Assembly (NCBI RefSeq): GCF_003054555.1
Contig: NZ_CP026304.1
Span: 1,736,001 to 1,800,000 of the forward strand
Source: Streptomyces lunaelactis
GTDB taxonomy: Bacteria > Actinomycetota > Actinomycetes > Streptomycetales > Streptomycetaceae
DNA: 64,000 bases
Direction of reading: 5' to 3'
Part shown: positions 22,920 through 32,117 of the stretch, in pieces
Layout of the letters: every line of letters starts with the position of its first letter
How positions within the stretch are numbered: the stretch's first letter is position 1
Notes under the pieces: generated by a model
The model's input: the letters and a program-made list of their open reading frames with translations, nothing else
What the model was told of the DNA's origin: nothing
Database searches by the model: none
Position numbers and translations under genes: made by a program

Positions 22920-23121
22920 CGCCGTCCAGAGGGCAGCGTCCAGGGTTGGGGGCAAAAGTTTCGGCCACAGCTCGGATGAATCGACTGCCGGATGCCCTGG
23001 TTCTCCGACGTATGCCCGATCGAGCGGAAGTTCACCCGGCCGTGCAAGGGGGCTGCGGCGGGGCACCCGGTAAGCCGTAAGGTTGGGGCGTGGACAAGGG
23101 AACTTCGGAAGGAGGCACTGG

Positions 23122-24120
23122 GTGATCGAGCTCGAGGGGGTTCCCGAGCTGATCGACCCGGTCATGGTGGCCGCGTTCGAGGGCTGGAACGACGCCGGCG
23201 ACGCCGCCTCCACCGCGGTCGCTCACCTGGACCGGGAATGGAAGGGCGAGGTGTTCGCGGCGCTCGACGCCGAGGACTACTACGACTTCCAGGTCAACCG
23301 GCCCACGGTGTGGCTGGACGGCGGGGTACGGAAGATCACCTGGCCCACCACCCGGCTCTCCGTGGTCCGCATCGGCGGCGACAAGCCGCGCGACCTGGTG
23401 CTGGTGCGCGGCATCGAGCCGTCCATGCGCTGGCGCTCGTTCTGCAACGAGATTCTGGGCTTCGCCCATGAACTCGGCGTCGAGATGGTGGTGATCCTGG
23501 GCGCGCTGCTCGGCGACACCCCGCACACCCGTCCCGTGCCGGTCAGCGGCATCACGTCGGACGCGGATCTGGCCAGGACGATGGATCTGGAAGAGACCCG
23601 GTACGAGGGGCCGACCGGCATCGTCGGCATCCTCCAGGAGGCTTGCACGCACGCGGGCGTGCCGGCGGTGAGCCTGTGGGCCGCGGTGCCGCACTATGTG
23701 TCGCAGCCGCCCAACCCCAAGGCGACGCTGGCCCTGCTCAACCGTCTCGAGGACCTCATCGGCCTCCGCATTCCGCTGGGTGAACTGCCCGAGGACGCCC
23801 GGGCCTGGCAGCTCGGGGTGGATCAACTGGCCGCCGAGGACAGCGAAGTGGCGGAGTACGTCCAGACGCTGGAGGAGGCGCGGGACACCGCGGAGCTGCC
23901 CGAGGCGTCGGGTGAGGCCATCGCGCGCGAGTTCGAGCGGTATCTGCGGCGGCGCGACGGGGGGCCGGGGCACGCGACCGACGGGGGCGAGGGCAGTTCG
24001 TATCTGCGCGACCCCTCCAGCGGGCGCACCCGGCCGCCGATGCCGCCGCGGGCGGAGCCGGACACCGAGGCCGAGCCGGAGGCCGGAGCGGGCGACGGGG
24101 AAGATTCCTCGGACGACTGA
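23122..24120 (+). CDS. PAC2-family protein
   Basis: A 332-residue member of the PAC2 family, named after the eukaryotic proteasome assembly chaperone 2 and common in bacteria and archaea that have 20S proteasomes. GTG 23122-23124 follows GGAAGGAGG. The fold core runs from VMVAAFEGWNDAGDAAS to PTGIVGIL and ends near residue 275. The C-terminal 60 residues are acidic, Pro-rich and probably disordered. In bacteria the function is unproven; a link with the proteasome is inference from family name and taxonomic distribution. A strong bidirectional terminator follows. Confidence 0.88.
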   Translation: MIELEGVPELIDPVMVAAFEGWNDAGDAASTAVAHLDREWKGEVFAALDAEDYYDFQVNRPTVWLDGGVRKITWPTTRLSVVRIGGDKPRDLVLVRGIEPSMRWRSFCNEILGFAHELGVEMVVILGALLGDTPHTRPVPVSGITSDADLARTMDLEETRYEGPTGIVGILQEACTHAGVPAVSLWAAVPHYVSQPPNPKATLALLNRLEDLIGLRIPLGELPEDARAWQLGVDQLAAEDSEVAEYVQTLEEARDTAELPEASGEAIAREFERYLRRRDGGPGHATDGGEGSSYLRDPSSGRTRPPMPPRAEPDTEAEPEAGAGDGEDSSDD

Positions 24121-24178: not shown

Positions 24179-25147
24179 CTAGCGGCCCTGGTCCACCGCG
24201 ACCGCGTCGTACGTCGTGGCGGGTGTCGGCGTCACATCGAAGCGGGCGTTGGGCAGATAGATCCTCTCGCCCCAGGCCGCCGCCGTCGTGGGGATCTTGA
24301 AGCGGGGATCGGTGATGCGTGCGATCGCCGTGCCACGGGTGCCGGACTCGTTGAGCCGCAGCACATCGACGGCGTTCTGCTGCTGCTGCACGACGTAGAG
24401 GATGCGGCCGAGCAGCAACAGTCCGTCGCCGTTCGGGAGTTCGGTGTCGCCGATGTCGACGCGGCGCGCGACGCCCGTACGCGGATCGACCCGCATCAGG
24501 GAGCCGCCTTCGACCACGGTGTTGACCATCAGCAGGGCGCGGCCGTCCGGGGTGCGCTCGATGCCGTTGGCCGTGAAGCCGGTCCCCTGCTCCCAGTCAC
24601 CGGTCAGCGGGACGGTCGTGACCTTGTCGCCCGGCTCGTCGTGCCGGCCGAGCGGGAGCCGGTAGATCTGCGCTGTGAACGAATCCGTGAACCAGGCGGC
24701 CCCCGGGGTGAGGATCACATCGTTGACGAACGTGGTGTCCGAGCCGACGGAGAAGGTCCTCAGCAGCTTCCCCGAGCGGACGTCGGCCACCCGGATCTCC
24801 CGGCTCGCGCCGCCGCTGAGGAACAGCAGCCGCTCGCGCCGGTCGATTTTCAGTCCGATCACGGGGTGCTCGGCGCCGAGCCCTTGGCTGATGACCCGTC
24901 CCTGGCCCGTGGCCAGGGACGCGCGGTGGATGTCGCCGCTCGCGATCGACCCGAAATAGGCGTACTGGCTCGATCCGATGGTGACGCCCTCGGGCCGGAA
25001 GCCGTCCGGCAGCGGGAAACTCGTGGGCCATCGCCCACTGGTGGATTCGGCCGCCCGGGCAACCCCGCCCAGAGGGGAGAGGAGCGCCGCGCCGCCGAGG
25101 GCCGCGACCGCCCCGAGAACTCTTCGACGTGCGAAGGAGCGTTGCAT
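24179..25147 (-). CDS. Tat-exported SMP-30/beta-propeller protein
   Basis: A 322-residue secreted protein. The N-terminus MQRSFARRRVLGAVAALGG is a twin-arginine signal followed by a hydrophobic stretch and AXA-type cleavage near ARAAES. The mature part shows repeated propeller strands with NDVILTP, TANGIERTPDGRALL and LPNGDGLLL, like SMP-30/gluconolactonase or superoxide dismutase-associated propellers. ATG 25145-25147 follows GGAAGGA; a longer frame adds 13 residues ahead of the Tat motif. Enzymatic activity is not provable from sequence. It is divergent from the subtilase gene. Confidence 0.85.
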   Translation of the reverse strand: MQRSFARRRVLGAVAALGGAALLSPLGGVARAAESTSGRWPTSFPLPDGFRPEGVTIGSSQYAYFGSIASGDIHRASLATGQGRVISQGLGAEHPVIGLKIDRRERLLFLSGGASREIRVADVRSGKLLRTFSVGSDTTFVNDVILTPGAAWFTDSFTAQIYRLPLGRHDEPGDKVTTVPLTGDWEQGTGFTANGIERTPDGRALLMVNTVVEGGSLMRVDPRTGVARRVDIGDTELPNGDGLLLLGRILYVVQQQQNAVDVLRLNESGTRGTAIARITDPRFKIPTTAAAWGERIYLPNARFDVTPTPATTYDAVAVDQGR

Positions 25148-25386
25148 TGACCGTCCTTCCGACAAGTGTTCTACAGACGCTCTCACCTCAGCACACAGCA
25201 GGCGGCTCCGTAGTGTTTGGCCGAATTGTGGGGTGACATCGCCTTCAAGACGAAATGCATGGGCTTCCCATGTGACTTGATTTCAAACGTAGTTCGCGCA
25301 AGCGGGGTGGACGCGCCGCCCCGGCGAGAGCAGGGTGGCCACCACGGCACGACATGGAGCACGGCACGAAGGGAGCGGTCGAAGCG

Positions 25387-27171
25387 ATGACCGATCAGGC
25401 ACTCCCAGGTCAGGGCCCCGGAACTGCGGGCCCTGGACCCGACGGAGCTGGATTCACCTATCAAGGAGCCGAGCCGGAGCTGATCGTCGTCGCACGGGCC
25501 GAGGCCCGGCTGCGCGCCGGCACGGAAGGCATACGGTCGGCCTCCGGGGCGGACATCTCCGCACTGAACATGTTCCTGAGCGACGAACAGCTCGCTCTGG
25601 AGCCGGTGTTCGGCAATGAGGAGCGGATCCGGTCCGCCCTGCCCGCGCAGCCCTCCGGACCGGCCGACGGCGGCGGCGGCGGCCGGGGCACGATGCCGGA
25701 CCTCTCGCTCTTCTATCGCGTACGGGGCGGCGGCGAGCGGGCCGAGGAGCTGACCGCGCGGCTGGCCGCACTCCCCGAGATCGAGACGGCGTACGTCAAG
25801 CCCGGCGCCGTACCCGCTCGGACCACACCGCAGGGCGCCCCGCCGAACCTCCGGCCGGAGGAGGCCAAACGACTCAAGGAGGGCGCGCCCGCGACCCCCG
25901 ACTACACCGGCCGCCAGGGCTACCTGGCGCCCGCGCCCGAGGGCGTCGACGCGTACTGGGCCTGGCAGCGGCCGGGCGGCTCGGGCCAGGACGTCACCGT
26001 CGTCGACGTCGAGGGCGCCTGGCAGCTGGGCCACGAGGACCTCGCGGACAAGCTCGCCGGGATCGTCGTCGGACATCCGATCCAGGACATCGCCTGGCGC
26101 AATCACGGCACGGCGGTCCTCGGCGTCATCGGCGGCGACCGAGACGAGAAGGGCATCACCGGTATCGCGCCCGAGGCGGTGACCGCGGCTGCGTCGTTCC
26201 AGGGCATCGGCTCCGCCGCGGCCATCCATGCCGCGGCCGAGCGCCTCCTGGCCGGCGACCTCCTCCTGATCGAGCTCCACCGGCCGGGCCCGCGGTTCGA
26301 CTACGCGGTACGCGACGACCAGCGCGGCTATGTCGCGGTGGAGTGGTGGCCGGACGACTGTGCCGCGATCCGCTGGGCGACGGCGAAGGGCGTCCTGGTC
26401 GTGGAGGCGGCGGGCAACGGCGGCGAGAGCCTGGACGACGCGGTGTACGAGCGCAGGCCCGACGCGTTCCCCGAGTGGTGGCGCAATCCCTTCAACCCGT
26501 CGAACCAGGCCTCGGGCGCGGTGCTCGTAGGAGCGGGCGCTCCCCCGCCCGGGACGCACGGCCGCGACCACGGTCCCGACCGCTCGCGGCTGGCGTTCTC
26601 CAACTACGGGGCACGGCTCGACGCCCAGGGCTGGGGCCGCGAGGTCACCACGACCGGCGGCTTCTGGGACCGGGCCGGTGATCTGCAGGGCGGCGCGGAG
26701 GAGATCGCCTGGTACACGGACACCTTCTCCGGCACCTCGTCCGCATCGCCGGTGGTGGTCGGCGCACTGGCCTGCCTGCAGGGCATCCTCAAGGCCGCAG
26801 GCCTCGCCCCGATGAGCCCCGAGCGGGCCCGCGAGGTGTTACGCAGGACCGGTTCGGCGCAGCAGGACGCCCCGGGCCGCCCGGTCTCGGAGCGCATCGG
26901 CAACCGGCCCGACATCAAGGCGGCCGTCACCCAGCTGGTTCCTTCGTCGGTCGGGTCCGGTCAGGCGGAGCAGTACTGGGACGAACTGATGCCGTACCCC
27001 CGTGAACTTCCCCCGCGCCTGAGGCTGTTCGTGGCCGGCGCGTGGCGCAACCTCAACCACCCCGCCCCCGAGGTCCGCCAGGCGGTACATGCCGCCTTCG
27101 CGGGGGGACGGCCGGACGTACGCGTCTGGTACTCGGACGACGAGGTCGTGGGCCTTGTCGTCGCCGGATGA
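25387..27171 (+). CDS. Cytoplasmic S8 (subtilisin-like) serine peptidase with C-terminal pairing domain
   Basis: A 594-residue subtilase with no signal peptide or membrane segment. The triad is Asp207 (TVVDVEGAW), His240 (RNHGTAVLG) and Ser451 (GTSSASP), with oxyanion Asn344 (AAGNGG). About 200 residues precede the catalytic Asp, including a Gly-rich linker at 93-100 and a possible prodomain-like segment (LSLFYRVRGGGERAEEL). The last 67 residues (about 528-594, YWDELMPYP to VVGLVVAG) align with the whole C-terminal half of the next gene product. Start chosen at ATG 25387-25389 after AAGGGAG; ATG 25354 adds 11 residues. The partner gene follows after 24 bp. Confidence 0.88.
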   Translation: MTDQALPGQGPGTAGPGPDGAGFTYQGAEPELIVVARAEARLRAGTEGIRSASGADISALNMFLSDEQLALEPVFGNEERIRSALPAQPSGPADGGGGGRGTMPDLSLFYRVRGGGERAEELTARLAALPEIETAYVKPGAVPARTTPQGAPPNLRPEEAKRLKEGAPATPDYTGRQGYLAPAPEGVDAYWAWQRPGGSGQDVTVVDVEGAWQLGHEDLADKLAGIVVGHPIQDIAWRNHGTAVLGVIGGDRDEKGITGIAPEAVTAAASFQGIGSAAAIHAAAERLLAGDLLLIELHRPGPRFDYAVRDDQRGYVAVEWWPDDCAAIRWATAKGVLVVEAAGNGGESLDDAVYERRPDAFPEWWRNPFNPSNQASGAVLVGAGAPPPGTHGRDHGPDRSRLAFSNYGARLDAQGWGREVTTTGGFWDRAGDLQGGAEEIAWYTDTFSGTSSASPVVVGALACLQGILKAAGLAPMSPERAREVLRRTGSAQQDAPGRPVSERIGNRPDIKAAVTQLVPSSVGSGQAEQYWDELMPYPRELPPRLRLFVAGAWRNLNHPAPEVRQAVHAAFAGGRPDVRVWYSDDEVVGLVVAG

Positions 27172-27195
27172 ATCGAAAGGGAAGGTGAACATGGC

Positions 27196-27663
27196 ATGAG
27201 CACCACCCCGCAGATGAACCCCAGCACGATGAGTCAGCAGTACGGGCAGCAGCCGTACGGCCACCAGCAGTACGGGCAGCAGCCGTTCGCCCAGCAGGGC
27301 GCGAGCACCGCCCCGCCGCTCCAGCAGCAGCTGCGTCAGCTCGGCCAGCAGCAGCCGTACCAGCAGCTGCTCCAGCAGCTCGGCCAGGAGCAGTCGCAGC
27401 AACCGATGGTGCTGCCGAGCGCGGTCGACGCCCAGGCCATCACCAGCGGCATCGCCACGAAGTTCTGGGACGTCGTCACGCCGTTCCCGGGCCAGCCGTC
27501 GATCCTCTACCTGTTCATCGACAACGCGTGGCGGCAGCTGGTCAACCCGAACCAGGTGACGCATGACGAGGTCCAGGAGGCGTTTGCCTTCGGGCAGCAG
27601 GTCATCGGGTTCTACGAATCCACGAACAGCGTCATCCAGGCGGTCGTGGTGAACAAGCAGTAG
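27196..27663 (+). CDS. Gln-rich protein sharing the subtilase C-terminal domain
   Basis: A 155-residue protein of unknown function. Residues 1-80 are low complexity, dominated by Gln with Tyr-Gly-Gln-Gln-Pro repeats, resembling prion-like or amyloid-prone segments. Residues about 87-155 (KFWDVVTPFP to IQAVVVNKQ) align with the C-terminus of the upstream S8 peptidase. Shared positions include FWD/YWD, P-F/Y-P, LxLF, AWRxL, the EV-x4-AF pattern and the hydrophobic end. ATG lies behind GGGAAGG, and the 24-bp spacing indicates one operon. It could be a substrate, adaptor or scaffold for the peptidase; that is inference. Confidence 0.8.
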   Translation: MSTTPQMNPSTMSQQYGQQPYGHQQYGQQPFAQQGASTAPPLQQQLRQLGQQQPYQQLLQQLGQEQSQQPMVLPSAVDAQAITSGIATKFWDVVTPFPGQPSILYLFIDNAWRQLVNPNQVTHDEVQEAFAFGQQVIGFYESTNSVIQAVVVNKQ

Positions 27664-27733: not shown

Positions 27734-30700
27734 TCACGCGCAACTGAAGCGCGCCGCGGCCCAGTCCCCGTGGTCCCCCGCCTTCGACCCATTCGTGTCG
27801 GTCACGTTCAGCCGCACATGCCGCGCCCCCTCCAGCCGCACATCCACCGGTACCGTCGCCGACGCCCCCGTCACCTTCGGCGAGGTCCACAGCACCTTGC
27901 CGTCCGCCTCGACCGAGAAGGCCACCTCCCCATAGCCGTTGATCTCGTCGTCGATGCCGACGTCCGCGGTCAGCGAGGTGCAGCGGCCGCCGAGGTAGAC
28001 CTCGATGCCGGAGTCCGCGTGGACGCCGATCCCCTTCTCGTACGTCGTGCCCGCCAGGGTGAGCGGATGTCCGTCCGCCGCCCCCGACTCGCCGTTGCTG
28101 CGGTCGCGTTCGGCGGGCCCGTAGCCGTTCGTGGACCTCAGCCACACCAGGTCGCTCGCCCAGGCGTCGGCGGCCGGCGGTGGCGGCATCACTCCCACCG
28201 CGAACCGCTGTACGGAGGTACGGTCCACGCCCGCCGCCCGATGGCGCACGGCCGCCGTCAGCGTCGCCTCGCCCGGCTTGGCGTCCACGGCGGGGGTGAC
28301 GGCCACCTCGACGCGCTTCGTCGTCCCCGCCGGGATACGGTCCACGGTCTGCGCGGGCGTGATCTGCCAGCCCGCAGGCGCGTTGAGGGAAACCTGTACC
28401 CCGGTGGCGTCCCGGCCGCCCGCCGTGACATCGACGGCGACCTTGCCGGGCGCGCCCGCGCCGAGCTCCTGCCCCGCCGGTACGGAGACGGACACGGCCG
28501 CGCCCGGAGTCCTGCCGCCGACCGCGCTGGTGTCCTCGAGCTCCAGCTCGAAGCCCCGGTCGGTGCGCAGAGACGGCGTCTTGACGTGCACCACGCCACC
28601 GCGGTCGTCCTGGTCGTACCACCAGCCCTGCGCGGCCCTCTCGTACGCGCCCTTCGAGCTCCGGCTCGGCAGCCCGCGGCCGTCGAGCTCCACCGTGCTC
28701 GGCGCGTCACCGGTGTGCACGCTGAAGTGGTACGGGCGTGTGGACTGCTTGCCCGTGAACTCGCCCTTGCTCGCACCGATCCGGACCCTCACGTCTCCGG
28801 CCCCGCTCCGCGGCGCGTCGACATCCGCGCGCTGGGTCGCGTACTTGCCGCCGCGGTGCTGACGGGTGACGCCGTCGTCCTCGTACAGCGTGAAGGACGA
28901 CTTCCCCTGCGGGTAGATGTCCCAGGCGAGCGGGGATCCGGCGGTGCGGTCGGCGTACGAGCGGATGCCCGGCCACATCGGGACGGTGGCCCCGGCCTTC
29001 ACGAACAGTGGCAGGGTGTCGAGCGGTGCGCTGTAGTTGTCGACGGTGACGGGACCTTCGTAACTCCGCCCGCTCCAGTAGTCGATCCACGTCCCCTTCG
29101 GGAGGTAGATCCCGTCGCGCTCGACGGCGTCCTGGTAGACGGGCGCGACCAGGAAGTCCTCGCCGCTCAGGAACTCGTACTTGGCCGCGTCCGTCGCCGC
29201 CTCGGGGTCGTCCGGGTACTCGAGCGCGAGCGGCCTGGCGAGCCCGACGCCCGTCCGGGTCGCCTCGTGCGCGTAGGAGTAGATGTACGGCAGCAGCGAC
29301 TCGTGCAGCTTGAGGTAGTCGCGGTTGACGGAGGTGTACGGCTCTCCGTACCGGAAGGGCTGCTTATCGCTCGCCGCCCAGCCGTCCATCGTCATCGTGA
29401 CCGGCAGGAACATCTTCCACTGCAGATCACGGGCGTACGTCTTGGGGCTGCCGCCGAAGATTCCGTCCACGTCGCCGGTCGTGTAGGCGAGTCCGGACAT
29501 GCTCGCGCCGGCGTAGGTCGGGATCTGCCAGCGGATGTACTCCCAGCTGCCGGACTGGTCGCCGGACCACTGCACTCCGCATCGCTGCGCGCCCGACCAG
29601 CTCTCCGGCGCCCAGGTGAAGCCGCGGGCGTCGCTGTTCTCCTCGATCCCCTTGTACGCGTCCTTGCAGCCGTCGAGGGCGAACTTGTAGCCGTCGCCGA
29701 CCCAGGCGACATCCAGTTTGGCGACGCGCTGTCCTGCCCTGACCTGCTCGGCGAGCTTGCCGATGCCGTCCTCGGTCCACAGGCCCATCTGCGTCTTGCG
29801 GTCCTGGAGCCCCTTGGCCGTTTCCGCCAGGTCCTCGTATCCGCACCCATAGCCGTCGTTGACGAGCATCCAGCCGTTGGGCATGTCGTTCTGCACATAC
29901 CCGTCGGCGACCTTGAGGGCGTCGAGAGTGTGCCGCTCGCCCCGGTTGGCGTTGTGCAAGTAGCAGTCGGCGTCGCCGATCTCGAGACCGTAGACGGGTG
30001 GCAGGAAGGGCTTGCCGGTCAGCTTCGTGTACTGGCCGATGACGTCCTTGGCGCTGGGACCCGCGAAGTAGTAGGCGTCGAAGCGCTGTTCCTTGGCGGT
30101 GGCCGTCACCGGGTCGTTGAACGCGTATGTGTTGGGTGCGTACGTGTTGCGGTAGACGCCGTATCCCTCCGAGGAGAGGTAGAACGGCACGGAGTTGGGG
30201 TGCCCGCCGTCGTCCCAGTTGTAGTCGACGCCGACCTCGACGGTCTTGCCGCGGTGGGAGGTGTTGCCGCGGCCGTTCTGCATTCCGGCGCCGTAGTACT
30301 GCTCGGCCGTGCCACGGGCGAGGGTCTGGGTGGTCTTGTCCCGGCCCCAGGTCAGGCCCGTGGTCTCGGCCCAGAGCTGGGTGCCGTCGGCGCGGTGGAG
30401 GGCGAAGCGCAGGGGCGACTTGTAGGCGCGCAGGGTGACCTTGGAGGTGCCGAGTTCATAGCGGTCGCCCTTGTCGCTCCAGTGGGTGGCGGGCGGGGCG
30501 CCCTGGGGCAGGACGATGTCCTGGCCGGTGGGGTCGGTGAAGGTGCCGTCCGGGGCGAGTTCGATACGGAAGGTCTCGCCGGAGACGAAGCTGACGCGGG
30601 CGACGGCGTTGCCGGCCGTGAGCCGGTAGACGGGGCCGTCGTGCGCGAAGCCGGTGACGTCACCCACTGTCGTATCGGCGGGCTCGGCCTGCGCGCTGCC

Positions 30701-30775
30701 GGCAGGGCCGGTGACGGCGGCGAGCAACCCGATCAGGGCGGCAACGACCGCTGATCTGAACCGTTTTGGTGTCAT
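27734..30775 (-). CDS. Secreted glycoside hydrolase family 31 with NEW3 and NPCBM domains
   Basis: A 1013-residue exported glycosidase. Signal peptide 1-30 (VVAALIGLLAAVTG, cleavage after AQA). The GH31 barrel occupies about 150-600: nucleophile Asp in KLDVAWVGDG, general acid Asp in WSGDQSGSWEY, and a C-terminal sheet domain after it. A NEW3/alpha-galactosidase-associated domain lies at about 765-850 (GVQVSLNAPAGWQI) and an NPCBM carbohydrate-binding domain at about 870-1013 (YEKGIGVHADSGIEVYLGG). GH31 enzymes hydrolyse or transfer alpha-glucosyl or alpha-galactosyl units; specificity is open. No clear ribosome site precedes the ATG. Confidence 0.9.
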   Translation of the reverse strand: MTPKRFRSAVVAALIGLLAAVTGPAGSAQAEPADTTVGDVTGFAHDGPVYRLTAGNAVARVSFVSGETFRIELAPDGTFTDPTGQDIVLPQGAPPATHWSDKGDRYELGTSKVTLRAYKSPLRFALHRADGTQLWAETTGLTWGRDKTTQTLARGTAEQYYGAGMQNGRGNTSHRGKTVEVGVDYNWDDGGHPNSVPFYLSSEGYGVYRNTYAPNTYAFNDPVTATAKEQRFDAYYFAGPSAKDVIGQYTKLTGKPFLPPVYGLEIGDADCYLHNANRGERHTLDALKVADGYVQNDMPNGWMLVNDGYGCGYEDLAETAKGLQDRKTQMGLWTEDGIGKLAEQVRAGQRVAKLDVAWVGDGYKFALDGCKDAYKGIEENSDARGFTWAPESWSGAQRCGVQWSGDQSGSWEYIRWQIPTYAGASMSGLAYTTGDVDGIFGGSPKTYARDLQWKMFLPVTMTMDGWAASDKQPFRYGEPYTSVNRDYLKLHESLLPYIYSYAHEATRTGVGLARPLALEYPDDPEAATDAAKYEFLSGEDFLVAPVYQDAVERDGIYLPKGTWIDYWSGRSYEGPVTVDNYSAPLDTLPLFVKAGATVPMWPGIRSYADRTAGSPLAWDIYPQGKSSFTLYEDDGVTRQHRGGKYATQRADVDAPRSGAGDVRVRIGASKGEFTGKQSTRPYHFSVHTGDAPSTVELDGRGLPSRSSKGAYERAAQGWWYDQDDRGGVVHVKTPSLRTDRGFELELEDTSAVGGRTPGAAVSVSVPAGQELGAGAPGKVAVDVTAGGRDATGVQVSLNAPAGWQITPAQTVDRIPAGTTKRVEVAVTPAVDAKPGEATLTAAVRHRAAGVDRTSVQRFAVGVMPPPPAADAWASDLVWLRSTNGYGPAERDRSNGESGAADGHPLTLAGTTYEKGIGVHADSGIEVYLGGRCTSLTADVGIDDEINGYGEVAFSVEADGKVLWTSPKVTGASATVPVDVRLEGARHVRLNVTDTNGSKAGDHGDWAAARFSCA

Positions 30776-30887: not shown

Positions 30888-32117
30888 CTAGAGCGCTACG
30901 CCCAGGAGGGCGTCGACGGCGCGGGACACCAGACCTGGCGCCCCCTCGTCCGTACCGCCGTCCGACTCCTGGAGCGCGGCCCAGCGGTCCACGGCGAGGA
31001 GCGCGGCGGGGGCGTCGAGGTCGTTCGCGAGGGCCTCGCGGATCTCCTCGACGAGGTCGTCGGCGGACGGCCCGTCGGGCCGGGAGACGGCCGCGCGCCA
31101 GCGCCCGAGGCGCTGCTGCGCCTCTTCGAGCACGGCGTCCGTCCACTCCCAGTCGGCCCGGTAGTGGTGCGAGAGCAGCGCGAGCCGGATCGCGGCGGGG
31201 TCCACGCCGTCGCGGCGCAGCTTGGACACGAAGACCAGGTTGCCCTTGGACTTGGACATCTTCTCGCCGTTGAGCGCGACCATGCCGGCGTGCACGTACG
31301 CCTTGGCGAAGGGGTACTCGCCGGTGAGCGCCTGGGCATGCGACGCCCCCATCTCGTGGTGCGGGAAGGTGAGATCGGATCCGCCGCCCTGCACGTCGAA
31401 GCCCATGCCGAGGTGATCCAGGGCGATGGCGACGCACTCGATGTGCCAGCCGGGCCGGCCGCGGCCGAGAGTGCCGCCGTCCCAACTCGGCTCGCCCTCG
31501 CGGGCGGACATCCACAGCATCGGGTCGAGCGGGTTCTTCTTGCCTGGCCGGTCGGGGTCGCCGCCGCGCTCGGCGGACAGCAGCCGCATGGCTTCGGCGT
31601 CGAGATTGGACACCTCCCCGAAGTGCGGATCGGCCTCCACGGAGAAGTACACGTCGCCCTCGAGCTCGTACGCGGCACCGGCGTCGCGGAGGCGCTCGAC
31701 GAGCGGCACGATGCCGGGTATCGCCTCGACGGCGCCTATGTAGTGCTGTGGCGGGAGCATGCGCAGGGCGGTCATGTCCTCGCGGAACAGTGCGGTCTCC
31801 CGCTCGGCGAGCTCGGTCCAGTCGTGACCGTCGCGGATCGCCCGCTCGAGGAGGGGGTCGTCGACGTCGGTCACGTTCTGGACGTAGTGAACCTGCCGCT
31901 TGGTGTCGAGCCACACGCGCTGAACGAGGTCGAACGCGTTGTAGGTCGCCGCGTGACCCATGTGGGTCGCGTCGTACGGCGTGATGCCGCAGACGTAGAT
32001 ACGGGCGACGGGACCGGGGTCGAGGGTGATCGTCCCCTGGGTCGCGGTGTCGTGGATCTGGAGGTCGCGGCCCTCACCAGGCAGGGCGGGGACCTCAGAA
32101 GCGGGCCAGGCATACAT
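30888..32117 (-). CDS. mshC: Mycothiol ligase MshC
   Basis: A 409-residue class-I cysteinyl-tRNA-synthetase-like ligase that joins cysteine to glucosaminyl-inositol with ATP, the penultimate step of mycothiol synthesis. It shows the zinc/Cys motif [15 protein letters not shown] (HMGH variant of HIGH), WHIECVAIA and KMSKSKGN. It lacks the anticodon-binding domain of CysRS, and the length fits MshC. No Shine-Dalgarno sequence; TAGGCT lies six bases before the ATG, so the mRNA is likely leaderless. The mycothiol-dependent MscR is also in this window (46555-47640). Confidence 0.95.

Follow-up and report, generated by a model that had tools for sequence, protein, structure and literature searches.

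In bacterial conflict systems, effector-associated domains (EADs) are small, non-enzymatic terminal domains that can be carried by the products of adjacent genes, including that of a peptidase, and that can be limited to particular lineages (PMC7159879, PMC8195603). According to the sections of the survey by Kaur et al. 2020 considered here, three EADs are of mixed α+β type and the rest are all-helical, a copy resides on the core component of a system, and an organism typically encodes several proteins bearing the same EAD (PMC7159879). In antiviral nuclease-protease pairs, a trypsin-like protease activates a nuclease (PMC12799240). Intracellular subtilisins are cytoplasmic S8 enzymes under pro-peptide control (PMC6220982), and N/Q-rich prion-like proteins with tracts predicted to be disordered have been surveyed in bacteria (PMC6400439), with 0 mentions of Streptomyces, Actinobacteria or peptidase in that survey's main text.

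Here, we analyzed a pair of genes in a 64,000-nucleotide stretch of the Streptomyces lunaelactis chromosome (the window). The first gene encodes an S8 subtilase of 594 residues (positions 25387..27171, + strand), comprising a putative pro-domain, a catalytic domain (Pfam PF00082) and a C-terminal domain; the second encodes a Gln-rich protein of 155 residues (the partner; 27196..27663, +), which ends in a related domain and has no Pfam family above cut-off and no NCBIfam or PADLOC family. A first-pass annotation of the window had likened this arrangement to EADs and conflict systems. The layout indeed agrees, as the same small, non-enzymatic terminal domain is present on two adjacent genes, one of them for a peptidase, in a limited lineage (PMC7159879, PMC8195603). 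However, the domain is predicted to be OB-like, unlike the mostly helical EADs (PMC7159879), it has no Pfam match above chance, and only two carriers were found in the genome, neither of them fused to a conflict core (VMAP, iSTAND or GAP1-like). Furthermore, the neighbors scanned (PAC2, mshC, SCO1664 family, GH31-like and a GntR-type regulator) are housekeeping-type genes, without a core NTPase, vWA, VMAP or STAND component among them. With neither a core component nor extra domain copies found, the suggested link to conflict systems is unsupported.

The other described systems likewise match in part. As in the nuclease-protease pairs, a protease and a protein on which it may act form a two-gene unit, but the protease is of the S8 family, the partner has no recognized enzyme domain, and a shared domain is not mentioned in the portion of that work considered here (PMC12799240). 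When the two proteins were scanned with PADLOC, the sole match of the peptidase was to a generic subtilase model (17 bits, E 8.3e-4), and the partner had none. The peptidase resembles intracellular subtilisins in being a probable cytoplasmic S8 enzyme that may be controlled by a pro-peptide, while neither a partner gene nor a C-terminal shared domain is mentioned for those enzymes in the sections considered (PMC6220982). It also resembles the type VII mycosins in being an actinobacterial S8 peptidase with a weak profile match to TIGR03921; this assignment was rejected at 33.8 bits against a cut-off of 278.75, and no secretion gene was found among the scanned neighbors. Finally, the partner shares a Gln-rich tract predicted to be disordered with the surveyed bacterial prion-like proteins (PMC6400439), but here a shared domain links the tract to a protease. 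Among the matches listed for titles and abstract starts in the open-licence literature, we found no such protease-partner pair, nor did the family libraries hold one, in keeping with the initial impression that no system of this form had been described. The comparison suggests that the genes constitute an undescribed two-gene protease-and-partner module present in some Streptomyces.

Two proteins with a common C-terminal domain

The two genes lie on one strand with a gap of 24 bp, and their coordinates were confirmed as originally annotated. The peptidase start at 25387 is supported by the invariance of M1 and T2 in 32 aligned rows, the window included. In the 30 loci in which a pattern search found both genes (locus L100, whose partner the pattern missed, is outside this set), the gap ranges from 24 to 145 bp, and GGAAGGT precedes the partner start in 29 of them. 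The stretch 27172-27195 and its equivalents in relatives (GGAAGGTGRCACC-like) seem to be kept across loci beyond the ribosome-binding site. A promoter scan returned no promoter-like site, and a terminator scan returned 3 terminator-like sites versus 0.8 expected.

The peptidase matches PF00082 with an E-value of 9.3e-13 (48.6 bits; cut-off 21.8), placing it in the S8 family; NCBIfam and PADLOC added nothing specific, and its best sequence match in the PDB is remote and limited to the S8 region (E 1.7e-5). Residues D207, H240, N344 and S451 occur in the right order for what we take to be the Asp-His-Ser triad and the oxyanion Asn of S8 subtilases. All four are kept in 121/121 aligned sequences (the window and its 120 best-listed relatives), bearing out the complete triad that had been noted at the outset, and the catalytic core, from Asp207 to just beyond Ser451 (26005..26745, +), retains its catalytic residues in 31/31 paired loci examined. 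Judged by sequence, the catalytic residues of the peptidase are intact. A pro-domain is weakly predicted at residues ~23-146 (25453..25824, +), with a ferredoxin-like β-α-β arrangement as in subtilase propeptides. By hydropathy, neither protein has an evident signal peptide or membrane segment; within residues 1-60, the most hydrophobic 19-residue stretch scores 0.36 in the peptidase, consistent with the reported lack of an export signal, and -0.58 in the partner.

For counts of composition, motif and triad, we used the best-listed homologues: the best 120 of 252 in one list, which contains the window's own protein, and the best 120 of 4561 in another. Among the matches listed, the named relatives are nearly all from Streptomyces. 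The N-terminal tract of the partner (residues 1-76; 27196..27423, +) is Gln-rich, low in charge and predicted to be disordered except for a short helical stretch, with pLDDT values mostly <50. Among the 120 best-listed sequences, the tract, taken as everything before the last 80 residues, has a length of 36-156 aa and a Q content of 33-48% (median 41%) in every case, and charged residues account for 0.8% in the median and never for more than 8.7%. Over this set, Q accounts for 41% of its residues, G for 14%, P for 11% and Y for 2.5%, so that the tract is indeed Gln-rich, as first described, but is a Gln/Gly/Pro rather than a Gln/Tyr tract. With its Q content and low pLDDT, it has the N/Q-rich, low-charge and disordered character by which prion-like tracts are recognized. 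This richness in Gln is not a local composition effect, because, of 454 genes called at 34 loci, the 20 encoding partner-type proteins have 60-residue windows with a Q fraction of 0.42-0.57, while none of the remaining 434 exceeds 0.20; the simple gene caller missed several partners (e.g. at L096, L101 and L102), hence the count of 20.

Embedded in the tract is a motif, LRQLGQQQPYQQLLQQLG (residues 46-63; 27331..27384, +), modeled as parts of two short helices (residues 43-50 and 54-64, both at low confidence). The strict form [LIM]xx[LIMF]GxQQP[YFH]QxL[LM]xQ occurs in 115 of 123 sequences (the 120 best-listed and three relatives of a second-locus partner described below), and near variants occur in the remaining 8.

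The C-termini of the two proteins (peptidase residues ~522-594, 26950..27168, +; partner residues 81-155, 27436..27660, +) align almost end to end. Their local alignment scores 109, against a mean of 22 (sd 4) for shuffled sequences, with 0/2000 shuffles equaling it. When the partner was used to search all six frames of the genome, it retrieved the C-terminus of the peptidase (E 7.4e-8) and no further match at E 0.001, although own-genome copies with as much divergence as the second-locus partner might escape this search. Profile-profile comparison, which had been proposed as a check, related the partner domain to the peptidase domain with a probability of 97.9 (E 3.8e-13, 66 columns; profiles built from 21 partner and 22 peptidase domains). 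Thus the domain that the first-pass annotation had seen in both proteins withstood all three comparisons, and by these alignments the two copies are homologous. Six positions (A87, L106, P118, A129, F130 and G133 in partner numbering) are identical in all 17 rows of a combined alignment, and six more (G85, D92, P96, P98, P101 and R113) are the same in 16/17.

OB folds have the topology β1-2-3-α-β4-5. The model of the partner domain shows this order of elements (β-β-β-α-β-β) at high pLDDT, and its structural matches to OB folds stay at the level of the general fold; we are confident in predicting an OB-like fold. For the peptidase copy, the fold is taken over from the partner model, because the model of the whole peptidase is poor (mean pLDDT 40.5), including in this region. 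By sequence, the partner-domain profile retrieved nothing among solved structures (best E 1.2), and of 17 domain members compared to Pfam, 16 had no match at E 0.5 and one had a chance-level match (E 0.13).

Pairing at one chromosomal position

In a genus sample of 150 genomes, 24 had a match, 21 of them to an adjacent pair and 3 to the peptidase only. In an order sample of 293 genomes, 37 had a match, 36 with two adjacent matches and 1 with the peptidase only; two nearby matches on one strand were counted here as a pair, and of the new genomes, loci were read in G398 and G274. All order-sample carriers belong to one genus of 9, and the 3 matches in a phylum sample of 396 genomes are all from the own genus and had already been counted; in the samples searched, the shared domain is therefore confined to its own genus. 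The genus and order samples, which have five carriers in common, together comprise 56 carrier genomes, 52 with the pair, 4 with the peptidase only and 0 with the partner only, and since the alignment search scores part of the first-look candidates per genome, carriers may be missed. The survey of adjacency that had been called for thus found two adjacent copies in 52/56 carriers. The peptidase and partner genes form one genetic unit, and their functional pairing is strongly supported.

In the four genomes in which no partner was detected, the peptidase may work alone; their orphan status rests on sequence search. The orphan peptidases of G011 and G108 lie only ~76 and 164 bp before mshC, and those of G018 and G274 have a convergent gene close behind. 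Two orphans (L091 and L093) occupy the home slot with catalytic residues intact, and two (L092 and L094) are sited away from it. In the orphan at L092 (G018), the catalytic Asp is changed to Ala and the C-domain is kept, the one such loss seen.

On its left, the slot is bordered by a PAC2-family gene (23083..24120, +; NCBIfam proteasome-assembly-chaperone, E 1.8e-7, below cut-off), which we assign, by family and position only, as the orthologue of parJ/SCO1662. ParJ (SCO1662) is PAC2-related, mshC is SCO1663, and ParJ has been tied to ParA and sporulation (PMC4255298). The right border is mshC, encoding mycothiol ligase (30888..32117, -; TIGR03447, E 1.9e-204). Placement covered the 24 genus-sample carriers and a minority of those found in the order sample only; of the 24, 23 have the match no more than 3.4 kb from mshC, and the remaining one (G018) has it on another contig. 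Of 66 loci with both borders, 29 hold the pair and 2 a lone peptidase between the PAC2-family gene and mshC. At the other 35, chosen from the 126/150 genomes without a match, seven genes were searched for and only an NHL-like and/or a GH31-like gene was found between the borders; gaps of <=735 bp there may hold other small genes.

Both of these genes are present in the window. A 335-residue protein, NHL-like by reading its sequence and without an NCBIfam match, is encoded at 24179-25186 (-), and this gene occupies the slot of many genomes, pair-less ones included. A GH31-like α-glucosidase of 1013 residues is encoded at 27734-30775 (-), between the pair and mshC; it is a second accessory gene, also found in the slot of some relatives, pair-bearing and pair-less alike.

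A quick tree of 65 loci (34 of them pair-less; L167, in which the third tree gene is absent, was omitted) requires 11 presence/absence changes for the pair. Two tree neighbors, the pair-less L191 and the pair-bearing L201, have flanks that are 96-98% identical. The extra ~2.4 kb of L201 begins ~63 bp upstream of the peptidase ATG and ends with the last sense codon of the partner; L191 has 2 bp in its place. This segment holds just the two ORFs of the pair, so the unit can be present or absent as a whole. The pair is mostly kept or lost together at one spot of the chromosome. Its one usual slot and the clean difference between L191 and L201 suggest ancestral presence and repeated loss of the unit; the pair may instead have been gained by recombination at the slot. 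Natural empty controls exist in the many Streptomyces species whose slot is without the pair. Given the consecutive numbers of its parJ and mshC genes (SCO1662 and SCO1663), S. coelicolor is probably among the species without it.

Candidate functions of the pair

Reasoning by analogy, we tentatively favor a two-gene protease module in which the C-domains would dock the peptidase to a partner gathered through its Gln tract. The first gene would supply a cytoplasmic subtilase zymogen consisting of a pro-domain, an S8 catalytic domain and an OB-like C-domain, and the second a disordered, Gln-rich and almost uncharged protein with a diverged copy of that C-domain at its end. From these parts we infer assembly, docking and activation. 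The tract, with its conserved LQQLGQQQPFQQLLQQLG-type motif, would self-associate into assemblies or condensates under some cue; the OB-like C-domains would pair, by analogy gathering peptidases on the partner; and the crowded zymogens, again by analogy, might clear their pro-domains and cut nearby proteins, perhaps including the partner. In its most specific form, which we regard as conceivable but doubtful, the pair would be a bacterial signalosome, a prion-like Gln scaffold recruiting a subtilase zymogen via an OB-like docking domain not described before, such that assembly switches on cytoplasmic proteolysis in a multicellular bacterium. If the partner does gather and switch on the peptidase, the pair would offer a minimal example, with just two proteins, of bacterial proteolysis controlled by proximity, relying on a β-barrel and not on death-fold adaptors, with a Gln tract of the eukaryotic prion-like type.

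The divergence of the two domains bears on how they might dock. Across 29 pairs, the mean p-distance is 0.388 for the partner domain versus 0.140 for the peptidase C-domain, a ~2.8-fold difference. The two C-domains show no co-divergence beyond that of flanking genes (partial r -0.15, with 1866/2000 permutations at least as high), whereas the peptidase C-domain and catalytic domain co-vary once the flanks are removed (r 0.32, 3/2000 permutations). In 8 of 11 close pairs, the partner domain has a dN/dS of 0-0.34, and in the remaining three it has values of 0.45, 0.75 and 0.88, compared to 0.13-0.25 for the peptidase in close pairs; overall, the partner is under purifying selection, loosely. As the two domains do not co-diverge and selection on the partner is loose, these data do not favor a tight, co-adapting interface.

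The main rival to scaffold docking, which we consider rather unlikely, is that the partner is a dedicated substrate or reserve, docked via the shared domain and cleaved on demand, for example as a nitrogen-rich store of spores or stationary cells. Gln-rich spore proteins with their protease and gluten-like storage proteins provide parallels. Such a role would suit a tract that is rich in amide nitrogen and nearly uncharged and that keeps its composition at lengths varying from 36 to 156 aa (120 best-listed sequences), as well as the single adjacent peptidase per partner; the hydrophobic residues of the motif could even be subtilase sites. However, a conserved motif within the tract exceeds the needs of a bulk reserve, and 4/56 carrier genomes have the peptidase without a detected partner. 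Also in favor of this role, the slot adjoins the parJ-like gene, and a function in sporulation has been described for ParJ (PMC4255298). Were the partner a substrate, the pair would represent an undescribed dedicated storage or regulatory protein together with its protease.

The absence of co-divergence would also fit a shared targeting tag, with the C-domain sending both proteins to one place such as the membrane, a spore layer or a third protein. OB folds can bind many ligands, and the domain occupies the same C-terminal position on otherwise unrelated proteins; yet two adjacent carriers per genome, as usually found, would make an odd client list for general sorting, and we judge this explanation unlikely. 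Less probable still is an inhibitor or antidote, by which the partner would keep the peptidase inactive via the shared domain in toxin-antidote style. The partner is small, is encoded right behind the enzyme and was never seen alone in the 56 carrier genomes, but if there is a pro-domain, it would by itself hold the enzyme in check, and L091 and L093 carry a peptidase with intact catalytic residues at the home locus without a partner, which argues that the partner is not needed to tolerate it. The toxin gene of a toxin-antitoxin pair is not kept without its antidote, and those lone peptidases speak against membership in this class. That both are nucleic-acid-binding OB proteins, the partner, a disordered Gln/Gly/Pro tract followed by an OB fold, resembling a reversed SSB that brings the peptidase to DNA or RNA, strikes us as very improbable.

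A second locus and relatives outside the genus

The preferred docking arrangement draws on components that recur elsewhere in one genome. In addition to the home pair, G398 has a second locus (L095:6644-8987) that encodes a peptidase of 588 aa and, behind it, a Gln-rich protein of 175 aa. The C-domain of this second-locus partner is 29% identical to that of the window partner and matches it at the profile level (probability 91.7, E 7.9e-7, 58 columns), and the tract motif is kept in this protein and in its 3 relatives, the only ones that a homologue search with it found in the database. The association of tract, domain and peptidase is thus repeated at a second place in G398, and this version of the pair is rare.

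Outside the genus, we read four related peptidases (in G635, G448, G621 and G484), which are 38-55% identical and lack the C-domain; the domain was therefore probably added to the peptidase in Streptomyces. The G635 peptidase gene is followed by a gene for a 195-aa protein that is not Gln-rich and matches no NCBIfam family. In G448 (L088:5373-7958), the related S8 peptidase has a repeat region that looks like a β-propeller in place of the C-domain, and by reading the sequence it adjoins a TPR/CHAT-looking protein and a second S8-looking peptidase.
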